Origin: Sphingomicrobium clamense | GTDB taxonomy: Bacteria; Pseudomonadota; Alphaproteobacteria; Sphingomonadales; Sphingomonadaceae | NCBI RefSeq assembly: GCF_019264355.1 | Contig: NZ_JAHVAH010000001.1 | Location: 1,038,001-1,102,000 of the forward strand | Direction: 5' to 3' | Length of the DNA stretch: 64,000 bases | Part shown: positions 4,087 through 21,583 of the stretch, piece by piece | How positions within the stretch are numbered: position 1 is the stretch's first letter | Layout: each line of letters opens with the position of its first letter | Notes under the pieces: model-generated | What the model saw: only the letters and a program-made list of their open reading frames with translations | Database searches by the model: none | What the model was told of the DNA's origin: nothing | Made by a program: the position numbers and the translations under genes

Positions 4087-6105
4087 TCAGGGGGTGTTTT
4101 CGGTCAGGAGGTCATAAGTTGCGACGAGTTCGTCATCCTGGTTGAAAATCTCGACTGCCCACTTCACGACACCCGTCTCGTCCGACTTGATCGACTTGGA
4201 TCGCACCGTCAGTTCGACGCGCATCGAATCGCCCGGATAGAGCGGGGTGAGGAAACGCAGATTCTCGAGCCCGGTATTGGCGAGCACCGGCCCCGGCGGG
4301 GCGTAGACGAACAGGCCGGCGGCGAAGCTGAGGATCAGATAGCCGTGGGCAACGCGCCCTTCGAAGATGGGAGAGGCCTTGGCCGCTTCCTCGTCCATGT
4401 GCGCGTAGAACTTGTCGCCGGTGAATTCGGCAAAATGCTCGATATCTTCCACCGTCACCGTGCGCGCATCGGTGTAGAGCGTGTCGCCGATTTCCAGTTC
4501 GCTCATGGTGAGCTTGAAGGGATGCGTGTCGAGCTTCCGCTTGGGGCCGCCCGGAATGTACTGCTGCGCGATGGCGGCGATCATCGACGGGGTCGACTGG
4601 ATCGCGGTGCGCTGCATGTAGTGATGGACGCCGCGCACGCCGCCCATTTCCTCGCTGCCGCCCGCACGACCGGGGCCGCCATGGACGAGGACGGGGAGGG
4701 GCGAGCCGTGACCGGTTGATTCCTTGGCGTTGTCGCGATTGATGACCAGCATGCGCCCGTGGAAGGCCGCGGCGCCGCGGATGAACTCGCCCGCGATTTG
4801 CTCGTCGTAGGTGAAGAGCGAGAGCGCAAGACTGCCCATGCCCCGATTGGCGAGCGCGATGGCGTCGTCGATATCCTTGTAGGGCATGACGGTGGCCACG
4901 GGGCCGAATGCCTCGACCTCATGCACCGCGTCCGCCGCCCACGGGTCGTCCGCACGCAGCAGGGTGGGGGAGATGGCCGCGCCACCCTCCGGCCCGACCG
5001 CGGCATCGGGGTCGCCATGCACGATCCGCGCGCCGCCCTCGACCAGTTCGGCGATCTTGGCGCGCACGTCGTCGCGCTGCGACGTCGACACGAGGCAGCC
5101 GAGTTGCGTTTCCTTCTCGCGCGGGTCGCCAGCAGCGATATCGGCGAGCTTGCCCGCAATCGCGCCCTGGACGGCGTCGAGATGTTGGGCGGGCGCCAAT
5201 ATGCGGCGGATGGCGGTGCACTTCTGACCCGCTTTGGTGGTCATCTCGCGCACCACCTCGGCGATAAACAGGTCGAATTCAGGCGAGCCCGGCGCGGCAT
5301 CGGTGCCGAGCATCGAGGCGTTGAGGCTGTCCTGCTCGGCCACGAACTGGACGCTTTCGCGCAGCACCGTGGGATGGTTCTTGAGCTTGCCCGCGGTGGC
5401 CGCCGACCCGGTGAAGCTGACGACGTCCTGCCCGGTCAGATGGTCGAACAGATCGCCGACACCGCCGACGATCAGCTGGACCGCGCCTTCGGGTAGCTTG
5501 CCCGTCTCGATCAGGATGCGGAACGCGGCTTCGCACAGATAGGCGGTCGCAGTCGCCGGTTTGACGATGCAGGGCATGCCCGCAAGTAGCGTCGGTGCCA
5601 TCTTCTCGAGCATGCCCCAGACGGGGAAGTTATAGGCGTTGATGTGGACGGCCGCGCCCTGATGCGGGGTGAGGATATGCTGGCCGACGAAGGTGCCGCC
5701 CTTCGACAGCGGTTCGAGCTCACCGTCGAGCAGCACGTGCGCGTTGGGCAGCTTCTTGCGGCCGGTCGAGGAGTAGCTGAGCAGCGTCAGCGCGCCACCA
5801 TCGATGTCGATCCACCCATCGCCCTTGGTGGCACCGGTATGCGGGTTGAGCGCATAGAGCTCGTCCTTGCGCTCCATGATGGCGAGGCCCAGGTCCTTAA
5901 GCATCCACGCGCGCTCGTGGAAGGTCATCTTGCGCAGTGCGGGGCCACCGACATTGCGCGCATGGTCGAGCATGGCCTTGAAATCGAGCCCGTCCGAGCC
6001 GGTCGACGCGATGGTCGATCCGTCGATCGCGCTGGGAATTTCGCGCACGCCCTCGCCGCGGGTCCACGCGTCGCGCGCATAGTTGAGCAGTTCGATCGTC
6101 TTCAT
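4087..6105 (-). CDS. paaZ: Oxepin-CoA hydrolase / 3-oxo-5,6-dehydrosuberyl-CoA semialdehyde dehydrogenase
   Basis: This 672-residue bifunctional enzyme opens the oxepin-CoA ring and oxidises the resulting semialdehyde in aerobic phenylacetate degradation. The N-terminal part (about 1-520) is an aldehyde dehydrogenase with the catalytic cysteine in AGQKCTAIRR and a glutamate in QFVAEQDSLNAS. The C-terminal part (about 530-672) is a MaoC hot-dog hydratase with the FTGDKFYAHMDE and FEGRVAHGYLILS motifs. An AGGAG site lies 7 bases before the ATG at 6105. An upstream start at 6156 is less likely. It is divergent from the PilZ gene and on the opposite strand from paaABCE. Confidence 0.95.
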   Translation of the reverse strand: MKTIELLNYARDAWTRGEGVREIPSAIDGSTIASTGSDGLDFKAMLDHARNVGGPALRKMTFHERAWMLKDLGLAIMERKDELYALNPHTGATKGDGWIDIDGGALTLLSYSSTGRKKLPNAHVLLDGELEPLSKGGTFVGQHILTPHQGAAVHINAYNFPVWGMLEKMAPTLLAGMPCIVKPATATAYLCEAAFRILIETGKLPEGAVQLIVGGVGDLFDHLTGQDVVSFTGSAATAGKLKNHPTVLRESVQFVAEQDSLNASMLGTDAAPGSPEFDLFIAEVVREMTTKAGQKCTAIRRILAPAQHLDAVQGAIAGKLADIAAGDPREKETQLGCLVSTSQRDDVRAKIAELVEGGARIVHGDPDAAVGPEGGAAISPTLLRADDPWAADAVHEVEAFGPVATVMPYKDIDDAIALANRGMGSLALSLFTYDEQIAGEFIRGAAAFHGRMLVINRDNAKESTGHGSPLPVLVHGGPGRAGGSEEMGGVRGVHHYMQRTAIQSTPSMIAAIAQQYIPGGPKRKLDTHPFKLTMSELEIGDTLYTDARTVTVEDIEHFAEFTGDKFYAHMDEEAAKASPIFEGRVAHGYLILSFAAGLFVYAPPGPVLANTGLENLRFLTPLYPGDSMRVELTVRSKSIKSDETGVVKWAVEIFNQDDELVATYDLLTENTP

Positions 6106-17703: not shown

Positions 17704-18330
17704 TTACCAGCGCAGCAGGCGCGAGACGCCCCAGCGGCCGATGGCGGCCCACAGCGCGACGATCCCGACATGCCAGATGGCGAGATGGGCGAGCGCGGTC
17801 CCCGAGCATTCGAGCGTGACTGCGAAGGCGCCGACGCTACCCGCGGCGAGGCCGGTGAGCAGCCCCGCCTTTTCGGGCAGGACCGGCGCGCCACGACGAA
17901 GGAACAGGGTGATGGCGCTTGCTGTGAAGATGCTGCCGATCAGGCCGAATGTCAGGCAACGTGCGCCGAACTCGGCGTTTATGCCCACACCATGGCCAAG
18001 CGCCAGTTCGATCGCACTGACGGCGGGCAGGATCAGGATCGCACCGAACAGCCACAGCGCGCCGGTCTGGTTGGCGCTGCCGACGGCAGGGCGGGCGAGG
18101 CGCGTTGCGGCCCAACCGGCGGCGATCGCGGTGAGGAGGAACAGGCCTGCCGTGACGAGGATCAGCGGGGCGGGGCGTCCTGCGGCAAGATCGGGGCGAA
18201 TGCCGTACAGTGCGACGACACCGATGGTGGTCGCAAGCGCCACGCTGGCCGCGGCGATGCGTCCGCGCGTGAGCGACAGGATCGACGTCGGTTCGAGGTC
18301 GTCGGCGAGGGTGTCGATGAGATTGGTCAT
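17704..18330 (-). CDS. nrsF: NrsF-type anti-sigma factor (DUF1109), regulator of SigF
   Basis: The 208-residue integral membrane protein has about six hydrophobic segments. It carries two cysteines in membrane-associated segments, Cys125 (GARCLTFG) and Cys175 (TLECSGTAL), spaced 50 residues apart. In Caulobacter NrsF two conserved cysteines are needed for stress sensing and release of the sigma factor, and I recall the same spacing. The start at 18330 leaves one base after the sigF stop. A start at 18345 would overlap. It is the last gene of the bufferin operon. Confidence 0.88.
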
Positions 18331-18331
18331 G

Positions 18332-18856
18332 TCAGTCGCTTTCAACGAGCGCGGCGAGTTTCTTGAGGCCGCGATGGATGTTCACTTTGACCGCGGATTC
18401 GGATTGGCCGGTCATTGCGGCGGTTTCCTGAATCGACATCCCCTCGACCTTGGTGAGGGTGATGGCGGTGGCTTGTTTTGTAGGAATGTGGGTGAGCAGG
18501 CGGTCGAGGCTGAGGCGCGCAAGAACCGGCTCTTCGGCGGAAGGGACGGGCAGGTCGGCGTCTTCGGCGGCGTCGGGTGTCCGCTGCAGTTTCCGAAGCG
18601 CGTCGATCCAGCGGAAGCGGGCGATGGCGGCGAGCCAGGGATAGAAGGGCCGCGTGGCGTCGTAGGTCGCGCGCTTGGCGTGGAGCGCCATCAGCGTTTC
18701 CTGGACGAGGTCATCGACCGACTGGGGCGCGATCCGCTTGGCGAAATAGCGCGCCAGCCAGTCCTGCGCACCGGCAAGCGCGACTCGATAGGAGGACTTG
18801 TCGCCCTCCTGCGCCCGCGCCATCAGCCGGCGAATATCGTCATCGGCGAGGATCAT
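18332..18856 (-). CDS. sigF: ECF RNA polymerase sigma factor, SigF type
   Basis: The 174-residue sigma factor has region 2 (about 20-90, with [19 protein letters not shown] and [19 protein letters not shown]) and region 4 (about 115-170, [19 protein letters not shown], a helix-turn-helix). There is no anti-sigma-like extension. It sits between doxX and nrsF in the same order as the Caulobacter sigF locus. Its start overlaps the doxX stop as ATGA. Because a SigF-type promoter heads the operon, it probably activates its own transcription once released by NrsF. Confidence 0.92.
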
Positions 18857-19305
18857 CTGTCGGCCAGTCTACCTGAAATGGCATGATCGAACGAGACCCG
18901 CCCGGGGCCTTGTGTCAGGATGACGAGGCCGAGGGCGATCCAGCTCATGTGCGGGCTCCACCATGCGTCGGGATAGACGAACAGCTGGATGACCAGCGTC
19001 ATGGCGATGAGGCCGGCCGCAGCAAAGCGGCTGGCGAGCCCGAAGACGAGCAATAGCGGAAGCACGTGCTCGGCGGCTGTCGCAGCATAAGCGGAAAATT
19101 CCGGCGGCAGCGGCACGCCCGAATATTCATTCTCGAACAGGAAGAAGGTCGTTTCCGAAATGTCGAACCACGTGCCCTCTTCGATCTTGGTGCGCCCCGA
19201 TCGCCAGAAAATGGCGGCCAGCGCGATGCGCACGAACAGGAGCACGATGTCGCGGATCAGCGGCCGCGCTGCGAATTCGGTCAGTCGGTCATACAGTCGG
19301 GTCAC
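18853..19305 (-). CDS. DoxX-family membrane protein of the bufferin operon
   Basis: The 150-residue protein starts at a GTG that overlaps the bufC stop as GTGA. Four membrane segments are visible: [48 protein letters not shown] and [12 protein letters not shown]. The [10 protein letters not shown] motif after the first helix is typical of DoxX/DoxD proteins. DoxX genes regularly accompany DUF692-containing operons. The molecular role is unknown; quinone-linked redox or membrane stress functions have been proposed for the family. Confidence 0.9.
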
Positions 19306-19997
19306 AGGACAAGCTCCAGCAGGGGGCGTAGCGCTCCGCTGCGCACGAGATGGGTGGCCGCCTCCGCATTGCGGGCGAGGAGGCGACCAAAAGCGATCGG
19401 CGTGGCGGCAAGCTCGAGGAGGTGGGCCTCGGCGCTGTCCGCCAGGTTGACGAGGACATCGGCCTCGGGCCGCGTGATCAGGACGTGCGTGCCCTTGCCC
19501 GAAAGGTCGGGGAAAAGCTGTTCGCCAGGCTGTTCGAGCGCGACGATGCGCGTGGTGGGATGGATCAGCACCTTGGCCTCGACAAGCTTTTCCGGGCTGA
19601 CGCCCTTCAGTCGCTCGAGCAGCATGGCGGGCGCGTCGGCCGCGCCATGACTTTCGAGCCAGGCCCATTCGATACCGGCAAGATCGCGCGCCGCCGCCTC
19701 ATCGAGCGTTTCGGGAAAACCATCGCCGATCAGGCGCAGCGCGTGCGAGCGCGGGTGGGGGCCTTCGAGAAAGCGGGTCGCTGCCGCGTGGAAGGCTTCG
19801 TCGCCAAGATGCTGGCGGGTGAGCGGGTAGGTATCCTCGAGCGCGACATGACGCGCGTGGCTGATCGTGTTGGCATAGGCCTTGAGCGCGCGAAATTGCG
19901 ACGGGCGCGAACCTGCCAGCAGCGTGTCGGGCAGGAATGCGGGGCCGCCACGGATCGCGGCCGCCATCTGTTGCTGGAGGTCAGGCGACATATGCAA
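19302..19997 (-). CDS. bufC: Bufferin maturation partner BufC (DUF2063)
   Basis: The 231-residue protein has an N-terminal DUF2063 domain (about 5-95, with YANTISHARHVALEDTYPLTRQHLGDEAF) that serves as precursor-recognition partner for the DUF692 enzyme in bufferin-type RiPP biosynthesis, plus a C-terminal extension. The start is 19997 or 19991 (ATGCATATG). Either way it overlaps the end of bufB by 11-17 bases, so synthesis is coupled. Confidence 0.88.
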   Translation of the reverse strand: MHMSPDLQQQMAAAIRGGPAFLPDTLLAGSRPSQFRALKAYANTISHARHVALEDTYPLTRQHLGDEAFHAAATRFLEGPHPRSHALRLIGDGFPETLDEAAARDLAGIEWAWLESHGAADAPAMLLERLKGVSPEKLVEAKVLIHPTTRIVALEQPGEQLFPDLSGKGTHVLITRPEADVLVNLADSAEAHLLELAATPIAFGRLLARNAEAATHLVRSGALRPLLELVL

Positions 19998-20847
19998 GCC
20001 TCCGCGTCAGCATGGCGTCGGCGCGCTCGGCCTCGCCGAGCAGTTCGTCGAAGTCCGGAATGTCGTTGTCGCGTTCGAGCAAGACGGGGCGCGGGCCGAT
20101 GCGATCGAGCAGTCGATCAAGCAAGGTCCAGCATTCCTCGCTGACCGGCGATCCGTGATCGTCGACCGCGAGCATCTCGCCATTGCCATGATCCTCGACG
20201 CTGTGGCCGGCAATGTGGATCTCGCCAATGAGGCTCCCGTCGAGCGCGCCGACATAGTCGTTGGGGTCGATCCCGAGATTGGTGCGCGACACGAGGAGAT
20301 TGTTGACGTCCATGAGGAGGCCGCAGCCGGTGCGCCGCGCGAGTGCGTGAAGGAAGTCGACCTCGCCATAGGTGTCGCCCTGGAAGGCGGTCATGCGGCT
20401 GGGATTTTCGACCAGCATGGGTCGTCCGAGCTTTTCCTGCACCAGATCGACCTGATCGGCGAAATGATCGAGCGTTTGGTCGGTCATCGGGAAGGGGAGG
20501 AGGTCGGGAAATTGTTCGCCACCCAGGCTCGACCAGCTCAGATGATCGGAGACCAGAGCGGGCTGGTACCGGTCACAGAGGGAAACGAGCTGGTCGAGTT
20601 CGGCGCGGTTGACGCCGCCCGGGTCGCCCATGGACAGGCCGACCGAATGGAAGCTGACCGGCAACGCGTCGCGTATCTGCGCCAGCCAGCGATGCATCGG
20701 CCCGCCGTCCATGAAGTAATTTTGCGGGTGGACTTCCACCCAGGTAGGAGCGGCGCCCCGCGCCGCGCAGTCCATGACAGCCTCAAAGAATGCGGGCTTG
20801 AGGCCTAGACCTGCGCGCTTTGGGGGCAGTGGCGGGACGCCGTCCAT
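19981..20847 (-). CDS. bufB: MNIO-family peptide-modifying enzyme BufB (DUF692)
   Basis: The 288-residue TIM-barrel enzyme is of the multinuclear non-heme iron oxidative (MNIO) family. Metal-ligand segments are visible in order: EVHPQNYFMDGG, SVGLSMGDPGG, LVSDHLSWSSLGG, LVENPSRM, DVNNLLVS, EIHIAGHS and VDDHGSPV. In Caulobacter the homologue converts core cysteines of bufferins to 5-thiooxazoles, which chelate copper. The start at 20847 lies 4 bases after the second bufA stop. Longer in-frame starts run back into bufA and are rejected. Confidence 0.93.
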   Translation of the reverse strand: MDGVPPLPPKRAGLGLKPAFFEAVMDCAARGAAPTWVEVHPQNYFMDGGPMHRWLAQIRDALPVSFHSVGLSMGDPGGVNRAELDQLVSLCDRYQPALVSDHLSWSSLGGEQFPDLLPFPMTDQTLDHFADQVDLVQEKLGRPMLVENPSRMTAFQGDTYGEVDFLHALARRTGCGLLMDVNNLLVSRTNLGIDPNDYVGALDGSLIGEIHIAGHSVEDHGNGEMLAVDDHGSPVSEECWTLLDRLLDRIGPRPVLLERDNDIPDFDELLGEAERADAMLTRRLAYVA

Positions 20848-20851
20848 CTCG

Positions 20852-21142
20852 TCAGCCCTTCTTCTTGGCAACGGGCTTGGCATTGCCCTCGCGAGGCTTG
20901 AGCGACCCGCCCATCTCTTCGCAGGTGCCGGCCTCGACATATTTCCAGGCGTTGCCCTGGTAATCGACCTTGGAGGTGCCGGCACAGCTGGTGCCGGGGC
21001 CTGCCGCGCAATCATTCTTGCCGGCCTTGGCCACGCCGTAGCATTTTTCCTTGCCGGCGATGCTGGCGTCGGCGGGGGCGGCGGCGATGCCGGCCAGCGC
21101 GACCAATGCGGTCGCGGCCGAGAGAGTGGTGATGCTATTCAT
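20852..21142 (-). CDS. bufA2: Bufferin precursor (DUF2282), secreted form
   Basis: The 96-residue precursor has a classical signal peptide ([18 protein letters not shown], cleavage near APADA) and a core with four cysteines at 34, 45, 53 and 74 in EKCYG, GKNDC, TSCAGTS and GTCEEMGG. A Lys-rich tail (KPVAKKKG) follows. The predicted mature peptide is exported to the periplasm after its cysteines are modified. It is a near copy of the upstream bufA but with a cleavable signal instead of a lipobox. Confidence 0.92.
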
Positions 21143-21156
21143 CGAACGATCTCCGC

Positions 21157-21504
21157 CTAGGCTTGGTCGGCCGGGCTGCCGACGCCGTCAAAGGCCTCGA
21201 GCTTGCCGCCCATGTCTTCGCATTCGCCCGTCGGGACATATTTCCAGGCATTGCCCTGGTAATCGACGGTCGAGGTGCCCGCGCAGCTGGTGCCGGGACC
21301 GGCGGCGCAATCATTCTTGCCCGCGAGGCTGACGCCGTAGCATTTTTCCATTTCGCCATCGGCGGCGGCTTCGGCGAGTTCGGCGTCGACCGGTTCACCG
21401 GCCATGGCGGTATCTTCCGCAGCCGTTTCGGTCGTGCCGCTGTCGCTACAGGCGGCGAGCGCGAGCAGCGCCGTCGCGGCACCAAGCGTGGATACTGTCT
21501 TCAT
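21157..21504 (-). CDS. bufA1: Bufferin precursor (DUF2282), predicted lipoprotein form
   Basis: The 115-residue precursor has four core cysteines at 55, 66, 74 and 95, with the same spacing as its neighbour (11, 8 and 21 residues). Its N-terminus ends in a lipobox, LLALAAC (Cys19) followed by Ser, the arrangement for an outer-membrane-sorted lipoprotein. An acidic linker of about 33 residues rich in Ala, Glu and Asp separates the lipid anchor from the core. It is the first gene of the operon, 54 bp downstream of the SigF-type -10. The lipobox is the unusual feature: typical bufferins have a cleavable signal peptide. Confidence 0.9.
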
Positions 21505-21557
21505 GATGTTCTCCCTATTTACGTCGTGGGGAGCATCGGCCCGCCACTGCCCACTGG

Positions 21558-21583
21558 TTCGGGAGAGGGTGGTAGAAGGTTAC
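21558..21583 (-). promoter_or_regulatory. SigF-type ECF promoter (GTAACC-N16-CGAA)
   Basis: On the minus strand GTAACC (21583-21578) is followed by exactly 16 bases and CGAA (21561-21558). This is, as I recall it, the motif of Caulobacter SigF promoters. The TAA of the -35 is also the stop codon of the upstream amidohydrolase. Transcription should start near 21550, about 45 bases before the first bufA start. No other full match was found in the window. Confidence 0.85.

Follow-up and report, generated by a model that had tools for sequence, protein, structure and literature searches.

A SigF/NrsF-type Buf1 bufferin operon of Sphingomicrobium clamense with a predicted lipoprotein precursor beside a free one, and the recurrence of this pairing in Sphingomonadaceae

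The stretch of DNA analysed here (the window, 64,000 nucleotides of Sphingomicrobium clamense contig NZ_JAHVAH010000001.1, positions 1,038,001 to 1,102,000) contains on its minus strand, at window positions 17704-21583, a seven-gene bufferin operon with the transcription order bufA1-bufA2-bufB-bufC-doxX-sigF-nrsF. The operon encodes two precursors of the DUF2282 family, one of which is predicted to be a lipoprotein, and the pairing of this putatively tethered peptide with a free sister is the subject of this report. All seven genes were identified by Pfam, and the operon is compact, with adjacent genes either overlapping or lying 1-14 bases apart. The first gene, bufA1 (21157-21504), codes for a 115-aa precursor with a predicted lipoprotein signal (PF10048, 88.7 bits; cut-off 22.4), and the second one, bufA2 (20852-21142), for a 96-aa precursor with a predicted ordinary signal peptide of the signal peptidase I (SPI) type (PF10048, 90 bits). 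They are followed by the MNIO maturase gene bufB (19981-20847; Pfam MbnB_TglH_ChrH, 294.9 bits), the gene for the DUF2063 partner protein, bufC (19302-19997; 55.8 bits), and doxX (18853-19308; 66.5 bits), which encodes a DoxX membrane protein. The last two genes are sigF (18332-18856), for a SigF-like extracytoplasmic function (ECF) sigma factor recognized by Sigma70_r2 and Sigma70_r4_2, and nrsF (17704-18330; Pfam NrsF, 110.8 bits), for an anti-sigma factor whose two cysteines are C125 and C175. For bufB, doxX and nrsF the start is the author's choice, that of bufB being set inside a longer open frame. An earlier note on this DNA had placed two adjacent DUF2282 precursors upstream of bufB and bufC, which the Pfam scores, above the cut-off, bear out; the segment it delimited also takes in doxX, the ECF sigma factor gene and nrsF, left unnamed in its text.

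Regarding the NCBIfam models, BufB reaches the MNIO_BufB equivalog (317.1, cut-off 310), and its nearest solved chain is 3bww. Scores below the cut-off were obtained for both precursors with NF050166, the BufA2 family bufferin model (19.6 for BufA1 and 29.9 for BufA2, cut-off 60), for BufC with the HvfC equivalog (20.4, cut-off 142), for DoxX with the HvfX equivalog (52.2, cut-off 80), and for NrsF with the NrsF equivalog (32.3, cut-off 300). The locus nevertheless holds what defines a Buf1 bufferin biosynthetic gene cluster, namely DUF2282 precursors with four conserved cysteines, an adjoining MNIO gene, and a DUF2063 partner. In the parts of the published texts drawn on here and below, the same set of genes (DUF2282, MNIO, DUF2063, DoxX, ECF sigma factor and NrsF) is found in the sigF regulon of Caulobacter (CC3254-CC3257 plus CC3253/CC3252; PMC3511200) and in the Buf1 class (PMC12452194), and these operons also share with that of S. 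clamense the GTAACC-N16-CGAA promoter and the four conserved cysteines. The S. clamense operon differs from them in the extra precursor, holding a lipobox and an acidic linker, which precedes the ordinary one. The cysteines C125 and C175 of NrsF do not align with C131 and C181 of the Caulobacter protein.

A SigF-type promoter element, GTAACC-N16-CGAA, is located on the minus strand at 21558-21583 (G000:C1:1059558-1059583), 53 nt upstream of the bufA1 start, and it matches exactly the SigF-binding sequence reported for Caulobacter (PMC3511200). The operon thus presents the two marks of a SigF/NrsF regulon, the promoter element upstream and a protein recognized by the Pfam NrsF model. In the whole genome there are eight exact sites, versus three for a reversed control; the proposal that the S. 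clamense site is significant by itself was consequently rejected, and it carries weight only when its position and its conservation are considered as well. As to the latter, the exact element lies upstream of 61 of 108 free copies of the precursor gene from Sphingomonadaceae and of six of the nine lipobox copies located near bufB; in the remaining three, the lipobox gene follows a free one. The reversed element was found, as an exact match, upstream of none of 143 copies from this family.

The two precursors differ mainly before the core. BufA1 carries the lipobox L16-A17-A18-C19 (21448-21459, minus strand), which matches at C19 a lipobox rule of the PROSITE PS51257 type, with Ser at position +2 and a Lys or Arg within the first seven residues. 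Between C19 and the first core cysteine runs a linker of 35 residues rich in Asp and Glu (residues 20-54; 21343-21447, minus strand). BufA2 has no cysteine N-terminal of the core. Counting Lys and Arg minus Asp and Glu, mature BufA1 has a net charge of -15 from C19 on, and BufA2 one of +5 after residue 26, a guessed cleavage point. The lipobox followed by Ser and an acidic spacer, claimed for bufA1 and denied for its sister in the earlier note, was therefore recovered by the lipobox rule, and so was the identical spacing of the core cysteines (offsets of 11, 8 and 21 residues in both). This spacing, however, was discarded as a sign of a special relation between BufA1 and BufA2: the same offsets occur in 130 of 143 Buf1 copies of Sphingomonadaceae and in 78 of 136 copies of a wider sample, so that they represent the family norm and are uninformative. 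The cores themselves are identical at 41 of 50 positions.

Whether the lipobox is shared was addressed by a DUF2282 search of 298 genomes of Sphingomonadaceae, placed in the family by their named relatives, of which 104 were positive; 151 copies were taken from all 104 of them, after exclusion of L002, which is a duplicate locus, and of one truncated copy found in L108. Outside the family, overlapping samples of the class (385 genomes, 135 matches) and the phylum (398 genomes, 102 matches), which include some family genomes, provided a set of 150 copies; this set is part of the matches found, and favours best-scoring and multi-copy genomes. Locus L150 of the wider sample lacks a start, and L178 and L179, which belong to the family, were removed from the outside set. 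The lipobox rule is matched by 41 of the 151 family copies and by two of the 150 outside ones (L147 and L372). The first 143 copies from the family comprise 104 without a cysteine before the core (first 45 residues), 36 that match the lipobox rule and three with a cysteine elsewhere; L073 (genome G244), which matched the rule without a linker, was classed as free, and in L379, with two possible lipobox cysteines, the first one was used. Properties of the lipobox class given below refer to its first 35 copies (from the first 143 family copies) unless otherwise stated. In a separate set of 80 named loci, picked by similarity to BufA1 and hence not indicative of frequency, a lipobox is present in 11 of 86 copies, ten of them in Sphingomonadales and one in an unplaced alphaproteobacterial metagenome-assembled genome. 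The named type strain Sphingomicrobium lutaoense DSM 24194 (L295) shows the same tandem of a lipobox gene followed by a free one, syntenic with the window.

These data bear on the simplest alternative, in which the lipobox cysteine stands by chance within an ordinary signal peptide, and BufA1 is cut by signal peptidase I to give a second soluble bufferin. N-terminal cysteines outside a lipobox do occur in the free copies L085, L109, L255, L263 and L300. Nevertheless, with the exception of L073, a cysteine fitting the rule comes with a linker of 17-48 residues, which is net negative in 33 of 35 copies and absent in free copies, and the pattern recurs at fixed chromosomal sites and is concentrated in the family (41/151 versus 2/150). 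A chance origin is accordingly regarded as very improbable, and these sequence patterns indicate that the BufA1 lipobox is more than a one-off feature. The two classes also differ in the C-terminal tail, with a median net charge of -2 in the lipobox copies and +3 in the 108 free copies, and all four core cysteines are kept in the first 35 lipobox copies. Position +2 is occupied in the 41 family lipobox copies by Ser (27), Gly (11), Thr (1), Asp (1) and Leu (1), the first 35 having Ser in 23, Gly in 11 and Thr in one, and the six later ones Ser in four, Asp in one and Leu in one.

The evolutionary history of the class was approached with a tree of 188 rows (143 family copies plus 45 of 136 others). 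Lipobox copies are clustered, the label requiring 11 changes versus a mean of 33.2 in shuffles, yet a single origin is not established by this tree, which has only 53 columns and was built with a quick method; its starred branches require at least three changes. In a plasmid search, DUF2282 was detected in 248 records, none of them spanning 80% of BufA1.

The predicted tethered form is usually accompanied by a free one. A free copy is also present in 33 of the 36 family genomes with a lipobox copy, and both kinds coexist in 33 of the 38 family genomes with more than one DUF2282 copy. Only three genomes hold lipobox copies alone, compared with a mean of 20.2 and a minimum of 11 in label shuffles made over copies, in which relatedness is ignored. 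In seven genomes, S. clamense included, a lipobox gene and a free gene stand in tandem beside bufB, with the lipobox gene first in four and second in three. The survey of homologues for a lipobox that the earlier note had proposed thus brought out a conserved tethered/free pairing; as for the sister peptide, which was said there to be released, it is better described as free in the periplasm.

Most lipobox genes do not lie in a bufferin operon. Among the first 35 copies, nine are near bufB, 20 beside tgt, four beside argB and two elsewhere, and the six later ones, whose neighbours were checked for tgt only, are all beside this gene. In turn, 99 of the 108 free copies are near bufB and none at tgt or argB. 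The constancy of these chromosomal sites argues for lipobox genes that are old and vertically kept. In loci L034, L037, L041, L042 and L044, a tandem of two lipobox DUF2282 genes adjoins tgt, with greater divergence in the second, and a free copy is found at a separate bufB locus.

The 26 stand-alone copies among the first 35 have no bufB in the fetched stretch (up to 5 kb on each side), so their modification would need to occur in trans. In S. clamense, where the genome search yielded two DUF2282 genes and one MNIO gene, the single maturase BufB would modify both precursors, if both are modified. Within the family, an MNIO gene is present in 34 of the 36 lipobox genomes, G022 having just a fragment of it at the end of a contig. 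It was not found in G051 and G128, two genomes of one genus (g52) that are 99 and 100% complete, and in which the sole DUF2282 copy (L378 and L379, respectively) is a lipobox gene beside tgt. Both copies have lost the two central cysteines and kept the outer two. The central pair, which is the one modified in Buf1 (PMC12452194), is retained in the other 34 lipobox genomes, and its loss was not seen in further, overlapping sets of 143, 136, 86 and 20 copies (L119 lacks the last cysteine). The presence of MNIO therefore tracks that of the central cysteines, kept where the enzyme is encoded and lost where it is not, which supports modification of the stand-alone lipobox copies in trans. The genus g52 also shows that a domain of the predicted anchored type can persist unmodified.

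This last point belongs to a second alternative, according to which BufA1 is a lipoprotein modified poorly or not at all by BufBC, acting as a plain thiol metal trap or as a sensor input, with BufA2 as the only thiooxazole metallophore. The abundance of stand-alone copies without bufB (26/35, and six more beside tgt) fits this explanation, as does the persistence in g52 of a lipobox copy devoid of central cysteines in genomes without MNIO, which means that the anchored domain can serve a purpose for which modification is not required; moreover, the signal peptide may belong to the recognition sequence (PMC12452194), in which case a changed signal could be badly read. Against it, loss of the central cysteines is confined to the two MNIO-less lipobox genomes, the other 34 keeping them, lipobox and free genes stand in tandem beside bufB in seven genomes, the BufA1 and BufA2 cores are identical at most positions, and lipidated MNIO substrates have been found to be modified (PMC12636315). 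A plain-thiol BufA1 is thus considered unlikely.

Regarding their regulation, the exact SigF element was found upstream of seven of the 26 stand-alone lipobox copies, and some of these genes may be wired to the same SigF regulon. It was not found in the loci of the six later stand-alone copies. Since most stand-alone copies lack the exact element, co-regulation is not general. A copper-responsive promoter was also sought by eye at the tgt-site copies, and none was established in this way.

Taken together, the locus is probably best interpreted, with good though not full confidence, as a SigF/NrsF-controlled Buf1 operon in which one BufB-BufC complex acts on two paralogous precursors bound for different places. 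The DNA itself shows the operon and its SigF-type promoter, the lipobox and acidic linker of BufA1, the presence of one MNIO gene, and the family-wide pairing; the lipidation and outer-membrane placement of BufA1 and the modification of either peptide are predictions. The published bufferin path begins with the release of SigF from NrsF under metal stress, which turns on the operon, and continues with the formation of thiooxazoles by BufBC on the central cysteines, Sec export, and copper binding in the periplasm (PMC12452194, PMC3511200). By analogy, metal stress in S. clamense would relieve the inhibition by NrsF, and the freed SigF would drive the operon, so that BufBC would convert the two central cysteines of both precursors into thiooxazoles in the cytoplasm before both are exported via Sec. 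BufA2 would then be cut by signal peptidase I to yield a soluble buffer for periplasmic copper, with a positive net charge. On BufA1, in turn, Lgt would acylate C19 and LspA would remove the signal (the genome holds one gene for each enzyme), so that a copper-binding domain of negative charge would remain attached through its acidic linker to a membrane, probably to the outer one on its periplasmic side. Two pools would in this way buffer copper, one in the periplasmic volume and the other one at the membrane surface.

The placement step has an alternative of its own, which competes with no other part of the interpretation: BufA1 could be sorted to the inner membrane, or to the surface, for instance leaving the cell in outer-membrane vesicles. 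Acidic residues shortly after the lipobox cysteine are a trait of some retained or surface-exposed lipoproteins, and BufA1 has Asp at +3; at +2, the S. lutaoense copy has Glu, and L378 and L147 have Asp. It has also been suggested that lipidated copper peptides are exported in vesicles (PMC12636315). Nevertheless, 39 of the 41 family copies have Ser, Gly or Thr at +2, and this sorting, although a serious possibility, is not the favoured one.

Several observations weigh against the two-destination interpretation or parts of it. The outer-membrane placement relies on the sorting rule of E. coli, and the residue at +2 is not uniform in the lipobox class (Asp and Leu also occur in family copies, and the S. 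lutaoense copy has Glu). Relatedness is not taken into account by the label shuffles, and the central cysteines were lost in a single genus, which counts as one event. In addition, 26 of 35 lipobox copies have no bufB nearby, and the exact SigF element is absent from 19 of the 26 stand-alone copies and from all those of two later sets (3/3 and 3/3).

A broader model, offered tentatively and judged rather doubtful, would extend this division to the whole family. Buf1 of Sphingomonadaceae would be split into a soluble cationic metallophore, made from the bufBC operon, and a membrane-tethered anionic one, encoded either in the operon or separately at tgt or argB, in which case the same BufBC would act on it in trans. 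Being oppositely charged, both forms could meet, so that periplasmic copper could be handed to a membrane store or to outer-membrane vesicles, in a two-compartment relay served by one RiPP (ribosomally synthesized and post-translationally modified peptide) maturase.

Parts of this arrangement have precedents. Tandem precursors, as well as lipoprotein signals on ~16% of Buf2 bufferins, have been published (PMC12452194). These Buf2 precursors are likewise MNIO-associated and hold a predicted lipoprotein signal but, unlike the S. clamense operon, they have 6 or 12 cysteines and no sigma factor or NrsF genes. Signal peptidase II signals have also been mentioned for "a subset" of bufferins in PMC12636315, in a passage that does not state which ones. 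In the same paper, DybA and NedA, two DAG-RiPPs, were demonstrated experimentally to be both MNIO-modified and lipidated. They resemble BufA1 in being MNIO peptides in the lipoprotein pathway, and NedA also in having an MNIO with a partner protein and a link to copper; they differ in their precursor families (chryseobasin-like, and EGKCG/oxazolin) and in that lipidation is experimental for them and predicted for BufA1. A free sister gene is not mentioned for either one in the portions of PMC12636315 used here. In the section of PMC12452194 drawn on here, neither a share of lipoprotein signals among Buf1 nor a pairing of tethered and free forms is given, and the word lipoprotein is absent from the main text of PMC13097082. 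The literature searched, which did not extend to the original bufferin paper or to supplements, yielded no account of a lipidated Buf1 in company with a free Buf1.

What is new, as far as the literature searched goes, is the family-wide pairing of predicted lipidated and free Buf1, which varies an established system and does not amount to a separate one. The paired tethered/free metallophore put forward in the earlier note as a new variant therefore stands for Buf1, with a smaller novelty than claimed, given the tandem precursors and lipoprotein signals already published (PMC12452194, PMC12636315). That note had also held that its proposal would suffer if lipobox-bearing DUF2282 proteins proved common and already described. 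They are common within Sphingomonadaceae (41/151), but not outside it (2/150), and descriptions were found for Buf2 and for other lipidated MNIO peptides, but none for Buf1 in the texts consulted. An odd single operon has in this way become a testable family-wide pattern, in which one RiPP maturase has two sister substrates with two addresses, and for which S. lutaoense DSM 24194 offers the same gene pair in a named type strain. The pattern constitutes a natural experiment on whether MNIO maturation in Buf1 tolerates a lipoprotein signal, and on how BufBC locates substrates encoded elsewhere. It also raises the question of why copper should be fixed at the membrane surface besides in solution.

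Some minor observations complete this analysis. The seven other exact SigF-type sites of the genome (loci L267-L274) have no obvious copper set downstream, as judged by eye and with no family search; the distance is 117 nt from one of them to a nitroreductase-like frame, and 87 nt from another to an L,D-transpeptidase-like frame, both frames being named by eye. Several of these sites are likely due to chance, because the reversed control gives three. In locus L301, from Microbulbifer rhizosphaerae (positions 5575 and 8341), one DUF2282 protein, which fails the lipobox rule used, combines a long charged linker with a near-lipobox (LPSC), and the same locus holds a free copy; this is perhaps an independent parallel in another class. 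Finally, L038 (4449-5195) encodes a 244-residue protein in which two DUF2282-like cysteine cores are joined by a long Ala/Glu-rich segment, with an ordinary free copy adjoining; Buf1/Buf1 fusions are mentioned in PMC12452194.

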